This document shows, piece by piece, positions 2,387 to 11,947 of a stretch of 11,947 nt of DNA. Source of the stretch: Ferroglobus sp. (GTDB lineage: Archaea > Halobacteriota > Archaeoglobi > Archaeoglobales > Archaeoglobaceae); the NCBI GenBank assembly GCA_015520115.1, contig WAQS01000246.1, positions 1 through 11,947 on the forward strand, written 5' to 3'. Made by a program: the position numbers and the translations under genes. Positions within the stretch are counted from its first letter, which is position 1; each line of letters opens with the position of its first letter. The notes beneath the pieces are model-generated. The model was not told where the DNA came from, did not search any database, and saw only the letters and a list, made by a program, of their open reading frames with translations.

Positions 2387-3657
2387 TAGAAGAAAGAGTA
2401 GGAATAGAGGGATATATTTCAAAAACTCCCGGAATCGGGGGGAGGATAAAAGAATCCGCTGAAGATTTTTACGTCGAGGAGATCATAGACTTGGAAAAAT
2501 TCAAAGAGAAAGAGGGAAGAAATCTCCTTATAAAGGTTAAGAAAAAGAATTGGGAAACCCTGAATTTTGCGAGAGTCCTTTCGAATGTTCTCGGAATTAG
2601 TCAGAAAAGAGTCGGATACTCGGGGACGAAGGATAAGAATGCCGTGAGCGTTCAGTATTTTATTATATACAACGCGGATGAAAAAATCGCTGAAAAACTC
2701 AGGGAAGTAAGGCTAAAAGACGCTGAAATTGAAGTTGTTTGCTTCACAAGTAAAAATTTGGAACTTGGAGATTTAGTGGGGAACTTTTTCAGAGTGAAAG
2801 TGAGCGATGCTGAAAACGGAGAGAGAGTTGAGAAGATAACCGAAGAGCTTAAGGAAAAGGGAATTCCGAACTTTTTCGGTATCCAGAGGTTCGGTTCCCT
2901 CAGGTTGATAACTCACGAGGTTGGCAAGCTGATTATTCAAAGAAAATACGAAGAAGCTTTCTGGGTGTACGTGGCGAAACCCTTTGAGGGCGAGAGAGAA
3001 GACGTTAGAAAGATAAGAGAAATTCTGTGGAAGGAAAGAGATGCAAAATTTGGATTGAGGGAACTGCCCAAATACCTGAGATACGAGAGATTGCTTTTAC
3101 AAAAGCTGAGAGAGGGCAAAAACGAGCTTGAAGCTCTCCTTAGCTTGCCTAAAAACCTCAAGCTCATGTTCATCCACGCCTACCAGTCTTACCTCTTCAA
3201 CAGGCTTCTATCGGAAAGAATAAGAGAGTTCGGAAATCTCAAAGAAATTGAAAGAGACGACTTCGTCGACTTCGTGAATTTTAGAAAGGGATACAAAGTT
3301 TACTCCGAAGACTTTTCCATTCTTACAGACTTCAACTCTCCGAGGATTTCGTTTCTGAAAGAAAAAGGTTACGCCATTCTCGCCTTACCCCTCCCGGGAT
3401 ACGAGACGAAGCTTGTTGGCTGGAGTGGGGAAAAATTGAAGGAAATTCTCGAAGAGGAAGGAATCGATCTTGAGAGCTTCAAATCCCCATACCCTGAGTT
3501 TTCCTCAAAAGGCAGTTTGAGGGTTGCAGAGATACCTTTCGATTTTGAAAGGTTTTCCTATTCCGAAGGTGTTTTCGAGTTCTTTTTGCCAAAGGGTTGT
3601 TACGCAACTGTGTTTTTGAGGGAGTACATGAAATCAGAGCAAATCGGCTTTTCTTAA
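2383..3657 (+). CDS. truD: tRNA pseudouridine synthase D (TruD family)
   Basis: TruD isomerises uridine to pseudouridine in RNA; the bacterial enzyme acts on tRNA-Glu U13 and archaeal/eukaryotic relatives (Pus7 type) also modify U13 or U35. The 424-residue protein has the hallmark catalytic segment GYSGTKDKNAVS at residues 78-89, with D84 as the predicted catalytic aspartate. It also has the TruD motif NFFGIQRFG at 163-171 and a YQSYLFNRLL motif farther on in the inserted TRUD domain. Length fits archaeal TruD. A Shine-Dalgarno-like GAGGA at 2369-2373, inside the end of rfcL, precedes the ATG, which overlaps the rfcL stop by 4 nt. The last 24 nt overlap the end of the convergent cbiO gene. 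The exact target uridine cannot be told from the sequence. Confidence 0.95.
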   Translation: MIEERVGIEGYISKTPGIGGRIKESAEDFYVEEIIDLEKFKEKEGRNLLIKVKKKNWETLNFARVLSNVLGISQKRVGYSGTKDKNAVSVQYFIIYNADEKIAEKLREVRLKDAEIEVVCFTSKNLELGDLVGNFFRVKVSDAENGERVEKITEELKEKGIPNFFGIQRFGSLRLITHEVGKLIIQRKYEEAFWVYVAKPFEGEREDVRKIREILWKERDAKFGLRELPKYLRYERLLLQKLREGKNELEALLSLPKNLKLMFIHAYQSYLFNRLLSERIREFGNLKEIERDDFVDFVNFRKGYKVYSEDFSILTDFNSPRISFLKEKGYAILALPLPGYETKLVGWSGEKLKEILEEEGIDLESFKSPYPEFSSKGSLRVAEIPFDFERFSYSEGVFEFFLPKGCYATVFLREYMKSEQIGFS

Positions 3658-4335
3658 AATCTCTTCGTTTAACTTATCGGTTTCAGCTATTACTCTCTTT
3701 TCCAAGCTCATTACGATAATTCGATCAGCCAAGCTTTCAACCAGCTCAAGCTCGTGGCTCGTAAAAACCACCGTGCCATCGTAAGTTTCCAGAATTTCGA
3801 AAATCTTCCTCTTCGTCTTTGCATCAACGTTGGCAAAAGGCTCGTCAAGAAACAGAATTTTTGGGGAGTAGATGAGGATGCTCGCCAGAGCGACTCTCTT
3901 CTTTTCTCCACCGCTCAGTCTGAAAGGGGGTTTTTTGAGAATTCCCGAAATCTTAAACTCTTCCGCTATTTTGCTGACCTCTTCCCTAATTTTTTCCTCA
4001 CTCCAACCAAGCTGAGAGGGCACATACCTAAGCTCATCGAACACCGTGGAGTTGAAGAGGAATATGTCGGGATCTTGAAAAAGAAAACCAACATTTTTTC
4101 TCACTTCTTCGATATTTTCCTCCGGGTTAACCCCAAGAATTCTAACTTTTCCAGTCGTTGGTTTTAAAAGCCCGGAAAGAACAAGAAGAAGAGTGCTTTT
4201 CCCGCTTCCGTTTGCTCCTATTATCGCAATTCTCTCGCCCTCTCTTATTTTCACACTCAACTCGTCGAAGCCGAGTGTTCCATCTGGATACGTGTAGCTT
4301 ATGTTCTCAGCCTCGATCACAGTATCGTCCACCAT
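3634..4335 (-). CDS. cbiO: energy-coupling factor ATPase, cobalt/nickel importer (CbiO)
   Basis: This is the ATP-hydrolysing subunit of the CbiMQO ECF importer and sits on the cytoplasmic face against CbiQ. The 233 residues hold a full ABC set: Walker A GANGSGKST at 40-48, Q-loop Q87, signature LSGGEKKR from 140, Walker B LFLDEP at 161-166 with catalytic E165, and switch H194. After Q87 comes DPDIFLFNSTVFDE, a segment typical of CbiO/EcfA rather than other ABC ATPases. Only one ATPase gene is present, so a homodimer is expected. The frame overlaps the end of cbiQ by 19 nt, implying translational coupling. The ATG at 4335 has no strong Shine-Dalgarno sequence. A GTG five codons downstream, preceded by GGTGG, is a possible alternative start. 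Its 3' end overlaps truD on the other strand. Confidence 0.93.
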   Translation of the reverse strand: MVDDTVIEAENISYTYPDGTLGFDELSVKIREGERIAIIGANGSGKSTLLLVLSGLLKPTTGKVRILGVNPEENIEEVRKNVGFLFQDPDIFLFNSTVFDELRYVPSQLGWSEEKIREEVSKIAEEFKISGILKKPPFRLSGGEKKRVALASILIYSPKILFLDEPFANVDAKTKRKIFEILETYDGTVVFTSHELELVESLADRIIVMSLEKRVIAETDKLNEEILRKADLL

Positions 4336-5039
4336 ACCACAACGAGTAAAAAGTAGGGGATTAATAGCTTACTCCCCTTAACTTTTCCAATTGGCTCACC
4401 TCTGAGCTTCATAGCCAGCGCAACTTTTTCCCCTTTTTCCATACTTCTCAGCATGAACAAACCGAGAGCCTCTCCCCCCCTCTTCATCGTCTCTATGTGT
4501 CCGCTCCTTTTAACTCTCCTACTTTCCCTCGCTATGAGAATGGCAAGTAGATCTCTCACGAGAATGTAGGAGTAAATGTATGTGACCCAAAGGGAGTTGA
4601 GAAGCTTCTCCGGAACTTTCAAAGCTCTTAAAGCTGAGATAACATCGTTGAAGGGGGTGGAAATTATGAGAAGCTGCAAAGAAGATATGGCGGCAAAAAT
4701 TCTCAGAGAAAAAATTAAGACGTAAGAGAACGGTTCGCCAAAAAACATAGTTGGTAAAACTATGAAAAAAGAGAATAGCGGGAAAAGATAAGAGCGTTTC
4801 ATGAGCTTAACTATGCTAATACCGCTCAGAAAAGCGAGAAGGTAGATCGAAATTATGATAAAGAGGATTTTTTCGATTTCGAAAGTTGAAACGGAGAGAA
4901 TAGCCAAAATTGTAAAGCCCACAACCTTTACTCGTGGATCAATTTTTGACAGCAAATTTTCTTCGTAAACGAAAAAATTTTGGAAGTATTCTGAGAAAGC
5001 TCTAATGCTTCTCTCTATTAGCTCGTGCAAGGGCAACAC
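4317..5039 (-). CDS. cbiQ: energy-coupling factor transmembrane protein (CbiQ)
   Basis: CbiQ is the membrane T-component that passes ATP-driven movement from CbiO to the metal-binding CbiM. The 240-residue product has an N-terminal LLSKIDPRVK segment (29-38) typical of the family. Several hydrophobic spans follow (about 40-75, 83-100, 105-126 and 150-170). Next comes the cytoplasmic coupling region with the two Ala-Arg type helices, here ARES at 170-173 and AMKLRG at 209-214, and a final membrane span. The Gly of the first Ala-Arg-Gly motif is replaced by Glu. The start is uncertain. GTG 5039 gives the full frame, whereas TTG 5030 has an AGGTG Shine-Dalgarno match 6 nt upstream. Either way the gene begins inside the end of cbiM (38-nt overlap from the GTG). 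Confidence 0.92.
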   Translation of the reverse strand: MLPLHELIERSIRAFSEYFQNFFVYEENLLSKIDPRVKVVGFTILAILSVSTFEIEKILFIIISIYLLAFLSGISIVKLMKRSYLFPLFSFFIVLPTMFFGEPFSYVLIFSLRIFAAISSLQLLIISTPFNDVISALRALKVPEKLLNSLWVTYIYSYILVRDLLAILIARESRRVKRSGHIETMKRGGEALGLFMLRSMEKGEKVALAMKLRGEPIGKVKGSKLLIPYFLLVVVWWTIL

Positions 5040-5877
5040 CTATCGCAAGAATTAAAGCGACGCCGATCGCTCCGGTGATAAGCGCTCCGAAGTAGTCGTT
5101 AATTCCAGGAACTGTGTAGTCAGGAAATATCCCGCTCCACAGGCTATTCTCGTTCAATCCGAGCTTTTCTGCCGCAACCTCCAACGGCTCTGTATAATTG
5201 ACCAATTCAGCCAGATATGCGAAGAGAGGCGCTAAAACTATCATCACGGCTATTAGCGCCAGAGCAGCCTTGCTTGGAGCTTGAGCCTTGACTTCAGCTC
5301 TCGTCGATATGTAGCTTATCACAGCAGCGGTGATGATTCCCTCTATTATCCCAAGAACTCCGTGCCAGATGAACATTACCGAGGCTGCCTCGATGACTCC
5401 GTACTTGAAAGCCGAAGACAAGCCTATTTCGACTCCAGCCATGGTGGCGGCTAAAGTTATCCCGAACCACCCGGCTAAGAAGCTTGCAAGTTGTTCGCTG
5501 TACTTTCTAAAGATCGAGTAAACGTAGTATCCGACGAAAACGTTCACGATTGCCATGTTCCACAGATTCGCTCCCAAAGCTGTAATTCCTCCATCTCCGA
5601 AAACGAGCGTCTGTATTATCAAGACCAAGCTCATCGCTATGCTGCCAGCGTAGGGTCCGAGTAAAATTCCGGCTAAACCTCCGCCGACAAAGTGAGCTGA
5701 AGTACCTCCGGGTATTGGCCAATTGAGCATCTGAGCAGCGAAAATCGCTGCTGCAACAACTCCGAGCGTAGCTGGATTTATCTCTGCTTTTCTGAAAGCG
5801 TATATCAACACTGCAAAGCTGAGTAAGTAGAATAAGGCTGCAAGATTCAAGTCGAGGAAACCGTCGGGGATGTGCAT
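5002..5877 (-). CDS. cbiM: cobalt/nickel transport protein CbiM with fused PDGLE (CbiN/NikN-like) tail
   Basis: CbiM is the substrate-specific membrane component that captures Co2+ or Ni2+. The protein begins MHIPDGFLD. In the family the N-terminal Met amine and His2 bind the metal, so the exact start matters, and it is intact here. Another conserved histidine lies in GGTSAHFVGGG (H62), and FGDGGITALGANLWNM follows at 93-108. The CbiM core ends near residue 195. Residues 205-291 add two more membrane spans flanking a soluble stretch (YTEPLEVAAEKLGL...PDYTVPG). This is recognisable as a degenerate PDGLE domain, the part often encoded separately as CbiN/NikN. Total length is 291, against roughly 220 for CbiM alone. 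Cobalt versus nickel cannot be decided from sequence; the B12 genes next door favour cobalt. An AGGT at 5883-5886 serves as Shine-Dalgarno sequence for ATG 5877. Confidence 0.93.
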   Translation of the reverse strand: MHIPDGFLDLNLAALFYLLSFAVLIYAFRKAEINPATLGVVAAAIFAAQMLNWPIPGGTSAHFVGGGLAGILLGPYAGSIAMSLVLIIQTLVFGDGGITALGANLWNMAIVNVFVGYYVYSIFRKYSEQLASFLAGWFGITLAATMAGVEIGLSSAFKYGVIEAASVMFIWHGVLGIIEGIITAAVISYISTRAEVKAQAPSKAALALIAVMIVLAPLFAYLAELVNYTEPLEVAAEKLGLNENSLWSGIFPDYTVPGINDYFGALITGAIGVALILAIGVALARANREKH

Positions 5878-6030: not shown

Positions 6031-6693
6031 ATGCTTTCGGAACTTGAGAGGAAGATCATAGATACGCTGAGCAGGATAGGAGAAGCTGACGTAAAAAAAG
6101 TGAAAGAAGTTCTATCAAAGGACAACGGTAAGATTCCGTACACAACAATAGCTTCAACGCTCGAAAGACTCTACAGGAAAGGATTTGTTAAAAGAAAGGA
6201 GGTCAAATCCAGGGGCAGACTTGGAAAGAAATACGTCTACTACATCGAAAAAAGCTTGGAAGACTTATTCGCTGAAAAAATTCTTGAAAACTTCATAAAA
6301 ATCTTCGGAGAGTACGAAATTCATCACATCGAAGATAAGATAGACAGATCGTACGTTTACGGAGTTCAGGAAAGCTTGATTTTCGTAGATAGAAACGATA
6401 GAGTCGTTTTCTTTTTCACAGCCACAGGGAAAAAAATAGAGGGGATAGTTGGAAAAAGCGTTTACGAATTTCATCCCGAGGAGGTAAAAGGCTTCGTCCG
6501 GCAAATACTCGAAGATTTCAAATCGGGAAAAAGAAACAAGTTTGAGAGGGAGGTAATAAAGGGAGAATACGTTTTCAAAAAGCACTACTTCCCGATAAGG
6601 GACAGTAACGGAGAGTACTTAGGGACTCTAATAATCACGAGACTGCTTGAAGAAAAGAAGGTGCCGAGTCTGCCAATTGAAGACCTCGTTTAG
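6031..6693 (+). CDS. transcriptional regulator: BlaI/MecI-type winged helix plus PAS domain
   Basis: This 220-residue protein has two recognisable parts. Residues 1-75 form a winged helix of the BlaI/MecI/CopY kind (LSELERKIIDTL at 2-13, then YTTIASTLERLYRKGFVKR at 37-55, and a wing RGRLGKKYVYY at 61-71). A helix at about 74-93 resembles the dimerisation helix of that family. Residues 108-205 form a PAS domain resembling the one found in DUF438 proteins. It has VGKSVYEFHPEEV at 140-152 (His148 in place of a CHP motif), a QILEDFKSGKR helix, and a closing RDSNGEYLGTLIITR. Proteins of this build are cytoplasmic dimers that change DNA binding when the PAS domain meets a ligand, haem or redox signal. 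The gene is divergent from cbiMQO and 41 nt upstream of btuC, so it is a good candidate regulator of both. The ligand is unknown, and BlaI-type proteolytic signalling is not implied. Confidence 0.8.
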   Translation: MLSELERKIIDTLSRIGEADVKKVKEVLSKDNGKIPYTTIASTLERLYRKGFVKRKEVKSRGRLGKKYVYYIEKSLEDLFAEKILENFIKIFGEYEIHHIEDKIDRSYVYGVQESLIFVDRNDRVVFFFTATGKKIEGIVGKSVYEFHPEEVKGFVRQILEDFKSGKRNKFEREVIKGEYVFKKHYFPIRDSNGEYLGTLIITRLLEEKKVPSLPIEDLV

Positions 6694-6734: not shown

Positions 6735-7700
6735 GTGAAAAAGCTTATAGCTTCGCTAACAGCTCTAAACATTCTTGTGGCATTACTATGTCTTATTGTC
6801 GGTAGTTCCGGAGTTTTCGGCGTTGATGTTTTCCTCAGAGTTGTTTCCGGAGTTGCTAAGGAAAGTGATATCAGCATTTTCTTCGGTGTAAGGCTTCCGA
6901 GGCTTATACTCGCGATGATCGTTGGTGCGTCTCTTTCGGCATCTGGCTGTGCGATGCAAGCTTTATTCAGAAATCCGCTCGCTGAGCCGTACGTTCTTGG
7001 AGTTGCGAGTGGTGCAAGTGTTGGTGCTGCGATAGTTTACGTCTTGGGAATAGCAACTATGAGCAACATTCTAATCTCAGCCTTCGTTTTCGCTCTTTTA
7101 ACATCCTTCACAGTATACAAACTCGGAAGCTTGGCGAGATTTAGAGATCAGAACTATGCGATTTTGCTCGCGGGAATAGCCATAGCAACTACCCTTTCAG
7201 GTTTAACTTCGCTACTCATCTACTTCTCAGCTCAAAGTATGCACAAAGTGGTTTTCTGGATTATGGGCAGTCTTTCAAATCCAAGGTGGGAGGAGGTGTA
7301 CTTCTCCTTACCAATAGCCTTTTTTGGAATTCTCTTCCTCCTACTCAACAGCTGGAACTTTAACGCTCTTTTACTCGGAGAGGAGCATGCGATGGCTGTC
7401 GGATTGAACGTTGAGAACTTCAGAAGATATTTGATAGGAACAGTCTCTCTCTTAACCGCTTCGGCAGTTGCAGTGAGCGGAGTTATCGGGTTCGTGGGGA
7501 TAATAGTACCCCACACAATGAGGTTGATGGTTGGAGAGGACTACAGAAAGCTTCTTCCAGCAACAATACTCTTCTCAACGATTTTCATGCCGTTAGTTGA
7601 TCTCGCCTCAAGAATATCGACAGCTGGCGAGATTCCAGTCGGAGCGTTAACGGCACTTCTTGGAGGACCTTTCTTCTTGTATCTCCTCTGGAGGAGATAG
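6735..7700 (+). CDS. btuC: corrinoid (vitamin B12) ABC transporter permease
   Basis: This is the membrane channel subunit of a FecCD/BtuC-type importer. It has 321 residues, the normal family length, with about ten hydrophobic spans. Family signatures seen are RLPR at 53-56, QALFRNPLAEP at 75-85 with VLGVASGAS after it, GFVGIIVPH at 252-260, and GEIPVGALTALLGGPFF at 298-314. Siderophore and haem permeases share all of these. The corrinoid assignment therefore rests on the downstream CbiZ gene and the extended BtuD, not on the permease itself. The start is GTG 6735; no other good start is nearby and the N-terminus begins directly with a membrane span. The stop is 1 nt before the btuD ATG. No gene for the extracellular binding protein BtuF accompanies it in this window. 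Confidence 0.88.
   Translation: MKKLIASLTALNILVALLCLIVGSSGVFGVDVFLRVVSGVAKESDISIFFGVRLPRLILAMIVGASLSASGCAMQALFRNPLAEPYVLGVASGASVGAAIVYVLGIATMSNILISAFVFALLTSFTVYKLGSLARFRDQNYAILLAGIAIATTLSGLTSLLIYFSAQSMHKVVFWIMGSLSNPRWEEVYFSLPIAFFGILFLLLNSWNFNALLLGEEHAMAVGLNVENFRRYLIGTVSLLTASAVAVSGVIGFVGIIVPHTMRLMVGEDYRKLLPATILFSTIFMPLVDLASRISTAGEIPVGALTALLGGPFFLYLLWRR
7690..7697 (+). promoter_or_regulatory. Shine-Dalgarno site that sets the btuD start
   Basis: GGAGGAGA lies at the end of btuC, with GGAGG ending 7 nt before ATG 7702. The same open frame extends back to a TTG at 7660 inside btuC. The strong site, and the N-terminus MKLKVENVTV typical of an ABC ATPase, favour 7702. Confidence 0.7.
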
Positions 7701-7701
7701 G

Positions 7702-8922
7702 ATGAAGCTGAAAGTTGAGAATGTAACTGTGAAAATCGAAAGCAAGGAAATCCTGAAGGACGTAACCTTGGAGGTAGAGAGTGGAGAAATAGTGGCTTTG
7801 CTCGGTCCAAACGGTAGTGGAAAAAGCACTTTGCTTAGGACGATCTTCGGAATACTCAAGCCCGTGAAAGGAGTAGTTTTCTTCGACGGAAAGAGAATCG
7901 AGAAAATCGAAGAGATTTCCAAGAACGTAGCTTATCTCCCGCAGGAGTCCTCCGATACGAATCTTACGGTTCTTGATGTCGTTCTTCTTGGAAGGACTCC
8001 CCATTTATCTGGATTTAAGCTCCCAAAAAGCTACGATTTGGAGATTTCGAAAAAAGCTCTTGAGGAAGTTGGAATGATTGAATTCGCCGGAAGAAAATTT
8101 TCAGAACTGAGCGGGGGTGAAAAGCAGAAGGTTTTGCTTGCGAGAGTTTTTGCTCAGCAACCAAAACTCATGTTGTTAGATGAACCGACTGCCCATCTCG
8201 ACATATCGGCTCAGATAGAGATCATGGAAATCGTGAGAAGGAAAGTCAACTCGGGCTGTTCGGCTTTGGTGGCTATGCATGATATAAACCTTGCTTCAAT
8301 GTTCTCCGACAAGATTATCATGGTGAAGAATGGAAAAGTCGTTTACGTTGGGGAAGCTGGGGAAGTTTTAACTGAAGAGTCGATAAGGGAAGTTTACGGA
8401 GCCGATGTAAGAATAAAAAAAGTCGGTAGATCCGTTTACGTGATTCCGAAGACGAGAGTAAAGAGGAACGGTAAAATCGTTCACGTCATTTGTGGAGGGG
8501 GAAGCGGGAGAGATTTGATATATTTGCTTTCGGAGGAAGGCTACAGCATTTCTGCCGGAGTTCTCAACGTTCTTGACTCGGATTGGGAAGCGATAATTGA
8601 CGTTGGTGGAGAATTCGTAGAAGAAGCTCCTTTCTCACCGATAAGCGAGGAAGCTCATGAAAAGAATCTGGAGCTCATCGAAAAAGCCGATGTTGTGGTT
8701 CTTTCAAATTTGGTCGTCGGTAAAGGAAACATCAGGAATTTGATAGCTGCAAAAATAGCTGCCGAGCTTGGAAAGCTGATTGTAGTTGAAAAAACTCGAT
8801 TTGAGTTGAGAAACTTTTTTGGAAAGCAAGCTGAGAAAATTTACGAGGAAATAGTAAAAAGAGCCAGAGTGGTCGGATCCGAAAGGGAGGCGCTCTATGA
8901 AATACGTAAGGTACTGGGTTGA
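7702..8922 (+). CDS. btuD: corrinoid ABC transporter ATPase with extra C-terminal domain
   Basis: Residues 1-250 are a complete BtuD/FepC-type ATPase that powers BtuC. They include Walker A GPNGSGKST at 35-43, Q81, signature LSGGEKQK at 136-143, Walker B LMLLDEP at 156-162 with E161, and switch H193. At 406 residues it is about 150 longer than a bare BtuD. The addition (about 257-406) looks like a Rossmann-type alpha/beta domain. It begins with a strand and a glycine loop, IVHVICGGGSG at 259-269, then GVLNVLDSDW at 286-295 and PFSPIS at 310-315. KADVVVLSNL, GKGNIRNL and ELRNFFGKQAEKIYEE follow. I recall similar tails on other archaeal BtuD proteins, but know no proven function. The gene begins 1 nt after btuC and overlaps cbiZ by 26 nt, so the three form one operon. 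Confidence 0.9.
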   Translation: MKLKVENVTVKIESKEILKDVTLEVESGEIVALLGPNGSGKSTLLRTIFGILKPVKGVVFFDGKRIEKIEEISKNVAYLPQESSDTNLTVLDVVLLGRTPHLSGFKLPKSYDLEISKKALEEVGMIEFAGRKFSELSGGEKQKVLLARVFAQQPKLMLLDEPTAHLDISAQIEIMEIVRRKVNSGCSALVAMHDINLASMFSDKIIMVKNGKVVYVGEAGEVLTEESIREVYGADVRIKKVGRSVYVIPKTRVKRNGKIVHVICGGGSGRDLIYLLSEEGYSISAGVLNVLDSDWEAIIDVGGEFVEEAPFSPISEEAHEKNLELIEKADVVVLSNLVVGKGNIRNLIAAKIAAELGKLIVVEKTRFELRNFFGKQAEKIYEEIVKRARVVGSEREALYEIRKVLG

Positions 8923-9475
8923 GGAGGATACGCTAATAGTCGAGGGCAAATTTTTTGGAGTCAGCACCGGGCTTTTAGGCGGATGGAAAAAGGTCAGATA
9001 CGCTTTTAACCACAAGGTGGGAGAAGAATTCTATTCCTCGGATCCGGCAGATTACCTGAGGAATGTTGCAAAAAAACTTGGATTGAAATCGTACTTCGGA
9101 TTGCTGACAGCGGTTCCCATGGAGAACTTGAGCGTTGAAAGAAAAGATGAAGTGACGGTTTTTATAACAGCTGGTGTGAACAATCCGAACGAAAAAATAG
9201 GGACGATTAACGTTATAGCAGCAATAGATGCGAGAATGAGCAGATCCGCCTTGCTCAACTCGATAATAACGATCACCGAGGCTAAGAGTAGGGCACTACT
9301 TGAGAGCGGATACCGCTTTACCGGAACGAACACGGATGCGGTGATAGTGTTATCGACCCAAAGAGGAAAGTACTACCGATTTTCGGGACCAGCAAGCGAT
9401 CTCGGAAACAAAATTTGGAATTGCGTATGCGAAGGAGTTAAAAAGAGCTTAAAAAAGTGGGACGACTTTGAGTGA
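8897..9475 (+). CDS. cbiZ: adenosylcobinamide amidohydrolase
   Basis: CbiZ removes the aminopropanol side chain of adenosylcobinamide to give adenosylcobyric acid. This is the archaeal route by which salvaged corrinoids re-enter coenzyme B12 synthesis. The 192-residue protein carries the family's core motifs in order: TAGVNNP at 91-97, GTINVI at 102-107, EAKSRAL at 128-134, GTNTDAV at 143-149, and PASDLG at 165-170. There is no signal peptide, so it acts in the cytoplasm on what BtuCD delivers. ATG 8897 is preceded by GGGAGG at 8885-8890 with 6-nt spacing and lies inside the end of btuD. Its presence is the strongest evidence that the upstream importer handles corrinoids rather than iron siderophores. 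Confidence 0.92.
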   Translation: MKYVRYWVEEDTLIVEGKFFGVSTGLLGGWKKVRYAFNHKVGEEFYSSDPADYLRNVAKKLGLKSYFGLLTAVPMENLSVERKDEVTVFITAGVNNPNEKIGTINVIAAIDARMSRSALLNSIITITEAKSRALLESGYRFTGTNTDAVIVLSTQRGKYYRFSGPASDLGNKIWNCVCEGVKKSLKKWDDFE

Positions 9476-9485
9476 GAAACTCGTA

Positions 9486-9498
9486 GTGTTTAAAACAC
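9486..9498. repeat. short palindrome after cbiZ
   Basis: GTGTTTAAAACAC is a palindrome with six-base arms about a central A, lying 11 nt after the cbiZ stop. The single-base centre makes an RNA hairpin of full length unlikely, so a protein-binding site is more plausible than a terminator. Its role is unknown. Confidence 0.3.
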
Positions 9499-9552
9499 CC
9501 TAACGTGCTAACTTAAAATTTCTTGTTAACTAATCAAACAAAATGGATAACA

Positions 9553-9560
9553 TTTAAATA
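9553..9560 (+). promoter_or_regulatory. TATA box for the exported-protein operon
   Basis: TTTAAATA is close to the archaeal TATA consensus and lies about 26 nt before the predicted transcription start near 9582. The following genes therefore form a unit separate from btuCD-cbiZ. The resulting leader of roughly 20 nt would contain the AGGTG ribosome site. Confidence 0.5.
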
Positions 9561-9574
9561 GCCGCGAGCCTATT

Positions 9575-9594
9575 TACTCAAAAAAATTTGAGTA
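9575..9594. promoter_or_regulatory. perfect 8-bp dyad at the predicted transcription start
   Basis: TACTCAAA (9575-9582) and TTTGAGTA (9587-9594) are perfect inverted repeats around AAAA. The TATA box puts transcription start at about the end of the left arm, so the dyad is more likely a DNA operator than an RNA hairpin. If transcription starts farther upstream, the hairpin would abut the AGGTG ribosome site and could affect translation instead. Confidence 0.45.
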
Positions 9595-9598
9595 GGTG
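9594..9598 (+). promoter_or_regulatory. Shine-Dalgarno site that sets the propeller-protein start
   Basis: AGGTG ends 6 nt before ATG 9605. The open frame also contains GTG at 9596, but that codon overlaps this site, so ATG 9605 is preferred. It gives a normal signal peptide. Confidence 0.6.
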
Positions 9599-9604
9599 TC
9601 AAAA

Positions 9605-11470
9605 ATGTCGAAGTTGAGGGTGTGTGTTATCGCTGCTTTAATGTTATTGGTGATTGCATCCACCGCCTCTGCAACAACGTTTCATGGAGATGCAGCGAGG
9701 ACCGGTAACTTTACTACAAATGACAAAATTTTACCAATTGTTGCGTGGAAACAGAAATTAAGCGGGCTTATAGGCGCCACTCCAATTTACAGTAACGGAC
9801 ATATTTATGTTACCAACTGGTATGGATGGAACAATTGGAATCCAGGATTATATTCACTTAACGCAGATACCGGTGCCATAGAATGGAGAAATGAAAATAT
9901 CACAGGAGCTTCAAGTGTTGCGGTATATGGAAATTTGATTATCGTTGGAAACCTTTCCGGCCACCTCTACTATGTTAACGTAACTACTGGAGCTATAGAA
10001 AAATCACTGCTCCTTGAGACTTCCCCTTCATATTGGGGTATAGCATCTTCTCCACTAATTTACAACAACTCAGTATACGTTACGACTTTTTCGAATGGCA
10101 CCTTGTGGAGACTTGACCTTGAAGGGAACATTTTGTGGGAATACACAACCGGAGGAGAGATAGCGCACTATACATCTCCAGCTGCTTATAACGGACTGAT
10201 ATTCTTTGCTGGCAATGAAAGCGGAATTCATAAATTAATTGCGATTTATGAAAATAGAACACTCGCTTGGAAGTTTCCGGTTGAAGGAAAAATAACAAAT
10301 TCTCCATCCATAGGAGATAATAAGGTCTTTATTGCAACGGACAAAAGACTTTATGCTATTAGTCTAAATGGAAATGAAGTTTGGAACGTAAGCTTTAAGG
10401 GATCTATGTCCACTGCAGCAATCGCCTACGGGAGAGTATATATTGGCTCTTCAGATGGCAAGCTTTACTGTTTTAATGCCACTACTGGGGATGAACTTTG
10501 GAATTTTACTGCAAACGGAAAGATAGACTCTTCTCCGGCGATAGCTAATGGCGTAGTTTATTTCGCTACGAATACACCAGAAGGAACAATTTACGCAGTA
10601 GATGCTTTTACAGGAAAAGTTCTATGGTATTACAGACTAAAACCTCCAGAGGGTAGCTACTTTAATATTATGTCATCGCCGTTTATTGTCAACGGTAGAC
10701 TGTACATCGGTGCTGACAGCGGGTACATCTATTGTTTCGACAGTAAAGGGCGAATTACTGTCAACGTGACTCTTGCACCAATAAATATGACTATAACTGT
10801 AAGCGACAAGGAATATGAAATTCGGGAAAATACAGCACTTGGAGCTTTAATAAAAGCATCAAAACATGTTTCCAATGATAATAGCGCTGAAGTCTGGTTT
10901 GAGGTAACTTTGGATGATAGCTGGTATGAAAGTTATGGCTCGTTTTTTGTAAACTCAATAATGGGATTAACAACAAAAAAAGTAGACAACAATTGGATTT
11001 ACTGGTCGATTTGGAATGAAACCGCACCATTGGCTGTTGGAGCGAATTTGTACTATGTCAAAGACGGTGAAAAAATATACTACGGATACGGGGATGGTAG
11101 CAATTTGGAAAACTGTTCGGTCATTTTAGAAATCAATGTAAGTGTAACTCCAGTAAAGATAAGAGATGTGACCGTAAATCCAGCAAAATTAGGCGGTAAT
11201 GTAACTGCTTGGGTAAGTATCGGAGCAAGCGAAGATGACTGGTATGTGTTGGTGGTAAGTGGCTTAAATGAGAACGGAGACTACATTGCTGGAGTTTCTA
11301 CATTCCATCCTAATGGGGAAAAAAGCTTGAGAGTTCCAGTTTTGCTTCATATTCATCAGAGAAACAGTGTAGGCGACTACAAGCTGTATGCTGGAGTTTA
11401 CAAGCTCAGTAAGTATCCTGAAGATGTATTGGATGTGTTTGGTCCTGTAACTTGCGAGGTGTCGCAATGA
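9605..11470 (+). CDS. exported PQQ-type beta-propeller protein with DUF4430 (transcobalamin-C-like) domain
   Basis: This is a 621-residue secreted or surface protein. Residues 1-23 are a signal peptide ending ASA. Residues 25-382 form a beta-propeller of seven or eight PQQ/WD-like blades, each closing with a TG..xW type motif (LNADTGAIEW 86-95, LNGNEVW 254-260, NATTGDELW 291-299, DAFTGKVLW 333-341). Residues about 383-510 resemble DUF4430, the transcobalamin-like C-terminal domain. Key parts are TALGALIKAS at 410-419, SWYESYGSFFVNSI at 439-452, NNWIYWSIWNETAPL at 462-476, and the VGANLYYVKDGEKIYYGYG end. A further beta-sandwich-like stretch (510-621) follows. There are about 17 N-X-S/T sequons, suggesting glycosylation on the outside. 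No catalytic residues of quinoprotein dehydrogenases are evident, so a binding or scaffold role is more likely than enzyme activity. Function is not known. Confidence 0.8.
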   Translation: MSKLRVCVIAALMLLVIASTASATTFHGDAARTGNFTTNDKILPIVAWKQKLSGLIGATPIYSNGHIYVTNWYGWNNWNPGLYSLNADTGAIEWRNENITGASSVAVYGNLIIVGNLSGHLYYVNVTTGAIEKSLLLETSPSYWGIASSPLIYNNSVYVTTFSNGTLWRLDLEGNILWEYTTGGEIAHYTSPAAYNGLIFFAGNESGIHKLIAIYENRTLAWKFPVEGKITNSPSIGDNKVFIATDKRLYAISLNGNEVWNVSFKGSMSTAAIAYGRVYIGSSDGKLYCFNATTGDELWNFTANGKIDSSPAIANGVVYFATNTPEGTIYAVDAFTGKVLWYYRLKPPEGSYFNIMSSPFIVNGRLYIGADSGYIYCFDSKGRITVNVTLAPINMTITVSDKEYEIRENTALGALIKASKHVSNDNSAEVWFEVTLDDSWYESYGSFFVNSIMGLTTKKVDNNWIYWSIWNETAPLAVGANLYYVKDGEKIYYGYGDGSNLENCSVILEINVSVTPVKIRDVTVNPAKLGGNVTAWVSIGASEDDWYVLVVSGLNENGDYIAGVSTFHPNGEKSLRVPVLLHIHQRNSVGDYKLYAGVYKLSKYPEDVLDVFGPVTCEVSQ

Positions 11471-11947
11471 GAAAAATACATATAGTGATGTTTATAATAC
11501 TATTTTTATTATTAATTGCACAAGCTGTTGAAGCTTTAAAGATTAACGTTAACGGAAATTGCGTTAATGAAAAGTTAGAGATATCTGTTGACAGAGACTC
11601 ATTCATAATTATCCAGATAAATAATGGAACTCCAATATATGCTAATGGAACAACTATTTACTTTAAACCTTATATTGCAGGCAAAATCTACATAGAAGCG
11701 ATTAGTGGAAATGAAAGAGCTTCAAAAACAATTAATGTAGTGACGTGTTCAGCTCCAAGTAGTAGCAGCAAAATTGCATCAGGGAGACATTACCTCCCCT
11801 CAGGAAAAGTAAGCGTAACGCTTGAAGACGGAAGCGTGGAGGAAATCGACTACAGAACTGCATTGGGAGCACTTATAAGAGCCTCTGAAGTTAAAGGCTT
11901 CAGCGTAAAGGTGAAGAAGTGGAGCTACGGTTTATTTGTGGATTGTA
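11467..11947 (+). CDS. exported protein with the start of a DUF4430-like domain (3' end outside window)
   Basis: The first 160 codons are visible. Residues 1-23 are a signal peptide with a strongly hydrophobic core (VMFIILFLLLIAQA) and a likely cleavage after VEA. Residues 24-95 are a small beta-rich region with two cysteines (C32, C94) and two sequons (N53, N60), possibly an Ig-like fold. A Ser-rich linker (APSSSS) at 96-101 follows. From about 113 the sequence matches the upstream protein's DUF4430-like domain: TALGALIRAS at 131-140 against TALGALIKAS, then WSYGLFVDC against SYGSFFVNS. The start codon overlaps the upstream stop (ATGA, 4 nt) and has GAGGTG at 11456-11461 five nt before it, so the two are cotranslated. 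Base composition changes sharply within the gene near 11760. Neither function nor full architecture can be told from this fragment. Confidence 0.75.
   Translation, partial: MRKIHIVMFIILFLLLIAQAVEALKINVNGNCVNEKLEISVDRDSFIIIQINNGTPIYANGTTIYFKPYIAGKIYIEAISGNERASKTINVVTCSAPSSSSKIASGRHYLPSGKVSVTLEDGSVEEIDYRTALGALIRASEVKGFSVKVKKWSYGLFVDC

Follow-up and report, generated by a model that had tools for sequence, protein, structure and literature searches.

The last two genes of the window, the whole stretch of 11,947 nucleotides of Ferroglobus DNA analyzed here, are likely to encode the surface half of a corrinoid salvage operon with the order btuC-btuD-cbiZ-propeller/DUF4430-transcobalamin-like-btuF, acting by the mechanism set out below. 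We lean slightly towards a narrower reading, in which an envelope-anchored transcobalamin would serve as a two-domain corrinoid clamp that, together with a propeller co-receptor, loads an ordinary BtuF, coupled to the remodelling of foreign or incomplete corrinoids by CbiZ. This reading covers the Archaeoglobi together with some archaea classified under Methanosarcinales and Methanophagales. What was computed is the order of the genes and how it recurs, the domains and export signals of the proteins, the match to transcobalamin, and the B12 riboswitches of bacterial homologues; the steps of the mechanism are what we infer.

The window is the whole of contig C246, and the contig end falls inside protein 2 (Table 1). 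The first-pass annotation had described two exported proteins joined by an ATGA overlap and sharing a TALGALI[KR]AS...SYG.FV signature, with btuC, btuD, and cbiZ directly upstream. All of this is present: the stop of protein 1 and the start of protein 2 overlap in the ATGA at 11467-11470, the signature reads TALGALIKAS...ESYGSFFV in protein 1 and TALGALIRAS...WSYGLFVDC in protein 2, and the three upstream genes match their Pfam families. The top NCBIfam models were BtuC (NF007081, 269.5 bits, under its cut-off of 461) for the permease and the corrinoid ABC transporter ATPase (NF007082, 279 bits, under its cut-off of 537) for BtuD. BtuD carries a C-terminal extension of ~160 residues (about residues 240-406), partly covered by NF007082, which is kept in several relatives (405-415 aa) and absent from L040 (271 aa) and L044 (254 aa). 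The winged-helix/PAS protein is a possible regulator of the btuC operon, and a TATA-like TTTAAATA, found by eye ~45 bases 5' of the protein 1 ATG, is a candidate promoter. The divergent cbiM, cbiQ, and cbiO genes probably belong to the same theme. Since they adjoin the corrinoid operon, the cobalt and corrinoid uptake genes make up one island; the same adjacency was seen at locus L034 of G001, a genome of the same genus in one contig of 2,196,266 bases.

Table 1. Features of the window around the putative corrinoid salvage operon
Feature	Positions	Strand	Remarks
cbiM, cbiQ, cbiO, cobalt ECF importer (divergent neighbour)	3634..5877	-	
Winged-helix + PAS regulator	6031..6693	+	Adjoins btuC; 92% identical neighbour in G001
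btuC, FecCD-type permease	6735..7700	+	PF01032, E 6.8e-86
btuD, ABC ATPase with C-terminal extension	7702..8922	+	ABC_tran, E 9e-35
cbiZ, adenosylcobinamide amidohydrolase	8897..9475	+	Pfam CbiZ, E 1.2e-43
Intergenic gap, 5' of protein 1	9476..9604	+	
Protein 1	9605..11470	+	GTG alternative start at 9596
Protein 2, cut at contig end	11467..11947	+	

The pair had been proposed to replace or assist a BtuF-type binding protein, no gene for which had been seen in the window. The search of the window's own genome with Peripla_BP_2 indeed gave no match in the window, but a BtuF-type gene follows the protein 2 gene (hereafter the toroid gene) in 28 of the 31 archaeal loci that a search with protein 2 returned, the exceptions being L051, L065, and L084. 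Thirty of these loci were scored by script, and L084 (Methanosaeta) was read by hand. The absence is therefore best read as an artefact of the contig end, and replacement of BtuF by the surface pair was rejected, whereas an assisting role fits. Judging by the relatives' gene order, the missing btuF most likely sits just past the end of the contig. The gap between the toroid gene and the BtuF-type gene is -34 to +7 bases in 27 loci and 1033 bases in one. The BTUF profile was built from the relatives' genes and is uncalibrated against other binding proteins; with Pfam, seven of the following genes (L034, L039, L040, L041, L043, L044, and L045) all matched Peripla_BP_2 at E 7.7e-33 or better. A lipobox pattern was present in 19 of the 28 BtuF-type proteins. 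In G001, the 756-aa protein 2 is followed by a 317-aa Peripla_BP_2 protein (E 4.2e-43), the sole match to this family found in that genome.

The window's fragment of protein 2 shares 62% identity with its G001 counterpart across residues 8-155 of the latter, where the match stops at the contig end; neither the remainder of protein 2 nor the btuF that would accompany it was found in the window's own genome. A wider protein 2 profile added only tail-like matches, on contigs C188 and C220, to this genome. As to a btuF elsewhere in it, two Peripla_BP_2 genes were found, on contigs C181 and C183, and each adjoins permease genes of its own as judged by eye. The gene on C181 (L003) is flanked by an FmdE-like gene and a FecCD-like permease, both identified by eye, and this system probably imports a different substrate, a metal or a cofactor.

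The protein 2 fragment comprises a signal peptide, an Ig-like part, and the start of a DUF4430 domain, which is cut by the contig end and gave no Pfam match in the window. The relatives' proteins continue with DUF4430, then an alpha/alpha toroid, and then a PGF-type tail. The assignment of the shared signature to DUF4430 held in the relatives' full-length protein 2, where the domain exceeds the Pfam cut-off, the mark of the transcobalamin-like clade of the SLBB superfamily; in G001, DUF4430 was matched at E 1.5e-13 and the toroid by SQHop_cyclase_C at 5.1e-18. The suspected kinship with transcobalamin was likewise recovered. Transcobalamin-1 was the top of 10 solved matches to the DUF4430 profile A5 (E 1.1e-5), followed by a chance-looking collagen IV (0.0056) and then transcobalamin-2 (0.043); transcobalamin or intrinsic factor accounted for 7 of the 10 matches, five of them at E 0.57-1.1 and not significant alone. 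The L054 protein also has a stretch, SWGP-F/Y-V/I-x-C-I-x-G-x-C, in common with transcobalamin-1. A regular expression for one DUF4430 stretch, which hit 15 of 31 archaeal non-propeller sequences and 1 of 26 others, was too narrow and was dropped as evidence.

The toroid consists of 12 helices in the predicted structure of the L049 protein. Foldseek matched the toroid of protein 2 to intrinsic factor (3kq4) at E 3.5e-5, with cyclases and prenyltransferases, which have the toroid fold too, ranking above it. Against solved structures, intrinsic factor was the top match of the short toroid piece A7 (E 0.2, not significant) and came after cyclases and prenyltransferases for the short piece A6 (E 0.088). 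The eukaryotic model Cobalamin_bind (PF01122) was weak in G001 (E 0.0013, 18.2 bits, cut-off 25), and a match to it was listed for one of six full-length proteins and for none of the other five. The G001 toroid was also matched by NF053823 (E 1e-39, 136.6 bits, under its cut-off of 300), the model of the SCO2321 family, whose description says no more than membrane protein. In 10 of 10 rows of alignment A1, DUF4430 comes before the toroid; toroid-first proteins occur in the bacterial loci L106, L107, L109, and L120. As judged from its sequence, protein 2 of the relatives unites the two domains found in transcobalamin and intrinsic factor, arranged the other way round, and it presumably binds corrinoids. 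In L084, a 2157-aa protein with toroid matches along its entire length adjoins large propeller/DUF4430 proteins.

Among solved structures, squalene-hopene cyclases and drimenyl diphosphate synthase are closest to the toroid, both by sequence and by fold, so it could instead belong to an exported class II terpene cyclase-type enzyme that uses DXDD acid catalysis, with DUF4430 as a mere binding or spacing domain. We regard this as very improbable. The motif S-D-[FY]-D-D-T-A does stand at the place of the cyclase DXDD in 30 of 30 archaeal toroids scored, but this conservation is partly due to selection, since one of the two patterns used to fetch loci demands the motif, and DXDD is kept in just 11 of the 50 other loci (L084 counted among them). 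The NCBIfam cyclase models remained under their cut-offs on the G001 protein (TIGR01507, 47 bits against 431; TIGR01787, 55 against 323), and the neighbours, counting labelled genes only, are btuF, btuCD, and cbiZ. Furthermore, transcobalamin and intrinsic factor are themselves toroids of cyclase-like fold, which bind and do not catalyze.

Protein 1 consists of a signal peptide, a PQQ/BamB-like beta-propeller (about residues 40-385), a divergent DUF4430 domain (about 391-505), and a C-terminal beta-sandwich (about 509-623). The DUF4430 match is weak in the window (17.5 and 21.5 bits in two Pfam runs, cut-off 23.8), and the same place is above the cut-off in several relatives, for example, with 26.8 bits in G001 and 35.2 bits in G013. 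The propeller gene lies 5' of the toroid gene in 29 of the 30 scored archaeal loci, directly before it in 26 (gap of -36 to 290 bases) and with a DUF4430 gene between them in three. This placement argues against the view that protein 1 is a BamB-like propeller with a role in structure or assembly, or a PQQ-type enzyme, which is merely co-transcribed and leaves corrinoid uptake to protein 2 alone. That view draws on the fold matches of the propeller to BamB, YxaL, and tetrathionate hydrolase, on the divergence of the window's DUF4430, and on the propeller proteins of L045 and L072, in which the domain was not matched. It is nevertheless unlikely, as protein 1 mostly has a DUF4430 of its own, in more than one copy in some relatives, and models of PQQ-dependent dehydrogenases scored far under their cut-offs (TIGR03075, 53.5 bits of 480). 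A propeller resembling protein 1 in fold was solved together with FecB (matches 7 and 9 listed), which has the fold of BtuF and likewise serves as a binding protein; neither transcobalamin nor BtuG was among the 50 matches listed of the VIA lists.

G001 has the same gene order as the window, with 74-95% identity from the regulator through protein 1. The recurrence of DUF4430 genes next to btuCD and cbiZ was confirmed in the relatives: btuC, btuD, cbiZ, protein 1, protein 2, and a third gene stand in a row in 6 of 14 relative loci (L034, L036, L037, L039, L040, and L044, with btuC of L037 cut by a contig end), and cbiZ adjoins protein 1 in 6 of the 14. One operon holds the FecCD permease, the ATPase, and Peripla_BP_2 in L034, L039, L040, and L044; the window has the permease and ATPase before its contig ends. 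The genes btuC, btuD, and cbiZ are also present in 9 of the 30 scored archaeal loci, and elsewhere btuC comes after btuF. Because the 30 loci partly repeat the genomes of the 14 (e.g., L049 = G009, L062 = G016, and L063 = G004), the counts on the two sets are not independent.

For the recurrence test, 50 relatives were searched by Pfam alone, and protein 2 was not used. DUF4430 was matched in 22 of the 50 genomes, giving 24 loci that are not independent since the genomes are related, and in 17 of these a Peripla_BP_2 match begins no more than 4 kb away. By chance, 24 loci should have well under one such neighbour between them, as estimated from 122 matches in 50 genomes of ~1.9 Mb each, and the pairing thus recurs beyond chance. 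The other seven loci comprise three cut by a contig end (G000, G018, and G021) and four with no Peripla_BP_2 match on the contig, namely G020 and three short open frames of 172-215 residues. These short frames (G008:C5:20363-20575, G025:C37:12459-12644, and G046:C74:6279-6464) are perhaps stand-alone corrinoid-binding domains.

The toroid and BtuF are fused in one 681-aa protein in G024, which suggests that they act on the same ligand, and DUF4430, toroid, BtuF, and BtuC are encoded by four consecutive genes in G025. The region of the G024 fusion (L047:7510-14629) also encodes another BtuF as a protein of its own and a propeller protein of 1258 aa in which DUF4430 occurs in four stretches. A fragmented copy of a split cluster of the Methanophagales-like type lies on a contig filed under a Nitrosotalea MAG (L078), probably through a binning error.

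Besides L084, the protein 2 search gave 49 bacterial loci with toroid genes, 24 of which, chosen among those labelled DUF4430 or ATPase, were scanned with Rfam. A B12 riboswitch above the gathering score was found in 17 of the 24 (5/8, 4/8, and 8/8), and in none of the seven stretches made up of the window and the six archaeal loci scanned. The first labelled gene after the riboswitch, meaning the first matched by any of the eight profiles used, was a toroid gene in eight loci, DUF4430 in three, cbiZ in one, and a presumed ECF ATPase in five; the long bacterial proteins (about 530-930 aa) labelled BTUD are presumed to be ECF double ATPases. In seven of the eight toroid-first loci, the riboswitch lies 94-312 bases from the toroid gene. 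In L097 and L128, the riboswitch and the called open frame overlap. The L128 riboswitch is barely above the gathering score (35.5 bits against 31.5), and that of L093 is of the AdoCbl-II kind. In Desulfotruncus arcticus (L109:1034-5238), a cobalamin riboswitch is followed by cbiZ, a toroid/DUF4430/S-layer-homology (SLH) protein, and then presumed ECF genes, a cluster that forms a bacterial parallel to the archaeal operon.

These riboswitches bear on the ligand. The FecCD and Peripla_BP_2 families also transport heme and siderophores, and the surface pair might accordingly capture another tetrapyrrole or metal ligand for import by the operon, such as heme, an F430-like compound, a siderophore, or a cobalt chelate. 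This is improbable given the B12 riboswitches that precede the bacterial homologues and the position of cbiZ, which lies within the operon in the six relative loci and after a B12 riboswitch in D. arcticus. It would suit a genome that probably makes cobamide itself, as the presence of CbiC indicates for the window's genome, and a distinct metabolite for B12-making archaea was suggested in 2007 in the part of PMC1796856 available to us. The link to corrinoid uptake, initially offered as only suggestive, is now strongly supported by the recurring btuCD/cbiZ/btuF operon, the transcobalamin match, and the bacterial B12 riboswitches.

In the proposed mechanism, the PGF-type tail would hold protein 2 at the cell envelope, where its DUF4430 domain and toroid cavity would close round a corrinoid as in transcobalamin. 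Protein 1, a secreted protein with no visible anchor, would dock to protein 2, to BtuF, or to both. The corrinoid would be handed to the lipoprotein-like BtuF, presumably the product of the next gene past the contig end in the window's genome, and would then pass through BtuCD. Inside the cell, CbiZ would cut adenosylcobinamide-type corrinoids, which could be rebuilt into the needed cobamide. The corrinoid specificity of BtuFCD is predicted, with the linkage to cbiZ as its one support, and the positions of cbiZ and btuF suggest the salvage of foreign or incomplete corrinoids. A search of 30 relatives matched CbiC in 22, and the window's genome is one of these; G008, G020, G021, and G025, which have protein 2 and no CbiC match (genomes 94-100% complete; one enzyme is a thin proxy), may therefore depend on uptake.

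Burroughs et al. (2007; PMC1796856), in the portion of the text available, defined the SLBB superfamily with a prokaryotic transcobalamin-like clade and described fusions with toroid, Ig-like, and propeller domains, surface proteins, and paired paralogues in operons. They proposed that the bacterial proteins scavenge B12 and that the archaeal ones perhaps deal with a distinct metabolite, and an Archaeoglobus protein was listed. The window's pair shares the domain, the fusions, the surface location, and the paired operon paralogues with this clade. The clade was tied to CbiO- and CbiQ-like genes, unlike the BtuFCD-CbiZ setting here, and the terms 'btu', 'cbiz', and 'riboswitch' had 0 occurrences in the part of PMC1796856 examined. 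The first-pass annotation's view that such a role is undescribed in archaea thus stands in part: the general idea of B12 scavenging by prokaryotic transcobalamin-like proteins, an Archaeoglobus member included, dates from 2007 according to that part of the paper, whereas the BtuFCD-CbiZ operon, the fusion of toroid and BtuF, and the link to riboswitches were not found in the literature searched and are new as far as our searches show. No description of the archaeal operon was found in that literature, whose coverage leaves out most subscription journals, or in the available parts of PMC4350170 and PMC2667541. The operon offers a testable answer to the question left open in 2007, namely the role of transcobalamin-like proteins in B12-making archaea. 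Both halves of the animal B12 carriers are now seen beside an ABC importer, a bacterial B12 riboswitch regulon is linked to related proteins, and the proteins, probably heat-stable, would lend themselves to structural study of the corrinoid hand-over from clamp to BtuF.

The archaeal operon has the FecCD permease, the ATPase, and the Peripla_BP_2 binding protein in common with the BtuFCD cobalamin importer, to which it adds cbiZ, the two-protein surface module, and, in many members, a C-terminally extended ATPase. In Bacteroides, BtuG and BtuH are reportedly surface B12-binding lipoproteins that capture corrinoids ahead of the transporter, BtuG being a propeller. Set side by side by description, they and the archaeal pair are alike in corrinoid capture at the surface and in the propeller; to our knowledge, BtuG and BtuH have neither DUF4430 nor a toroid, and we know of no TonB-type outer membrane transporter in Archaeoglobi. 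Animal transcobalamin, haptocorrin, and intrinsic factor combine a DUF4430-type domain with an alpha/alpha toroid, as protein 2 does. Compared with these carriers, protein 2 has the reverse domain order, additional Ig-like and PGF-type parts, a probable anchor in the envelope, a place within a BtuFCD operon, and a toroid closer in sequence to cyclases. If the envelope-anchored transcobalamin reading is true, the design of the animal B12 carriers and the bacterial BtuF route would be arranged in series within one operon, sometimes as a single toroid-BtuF fusion protein.
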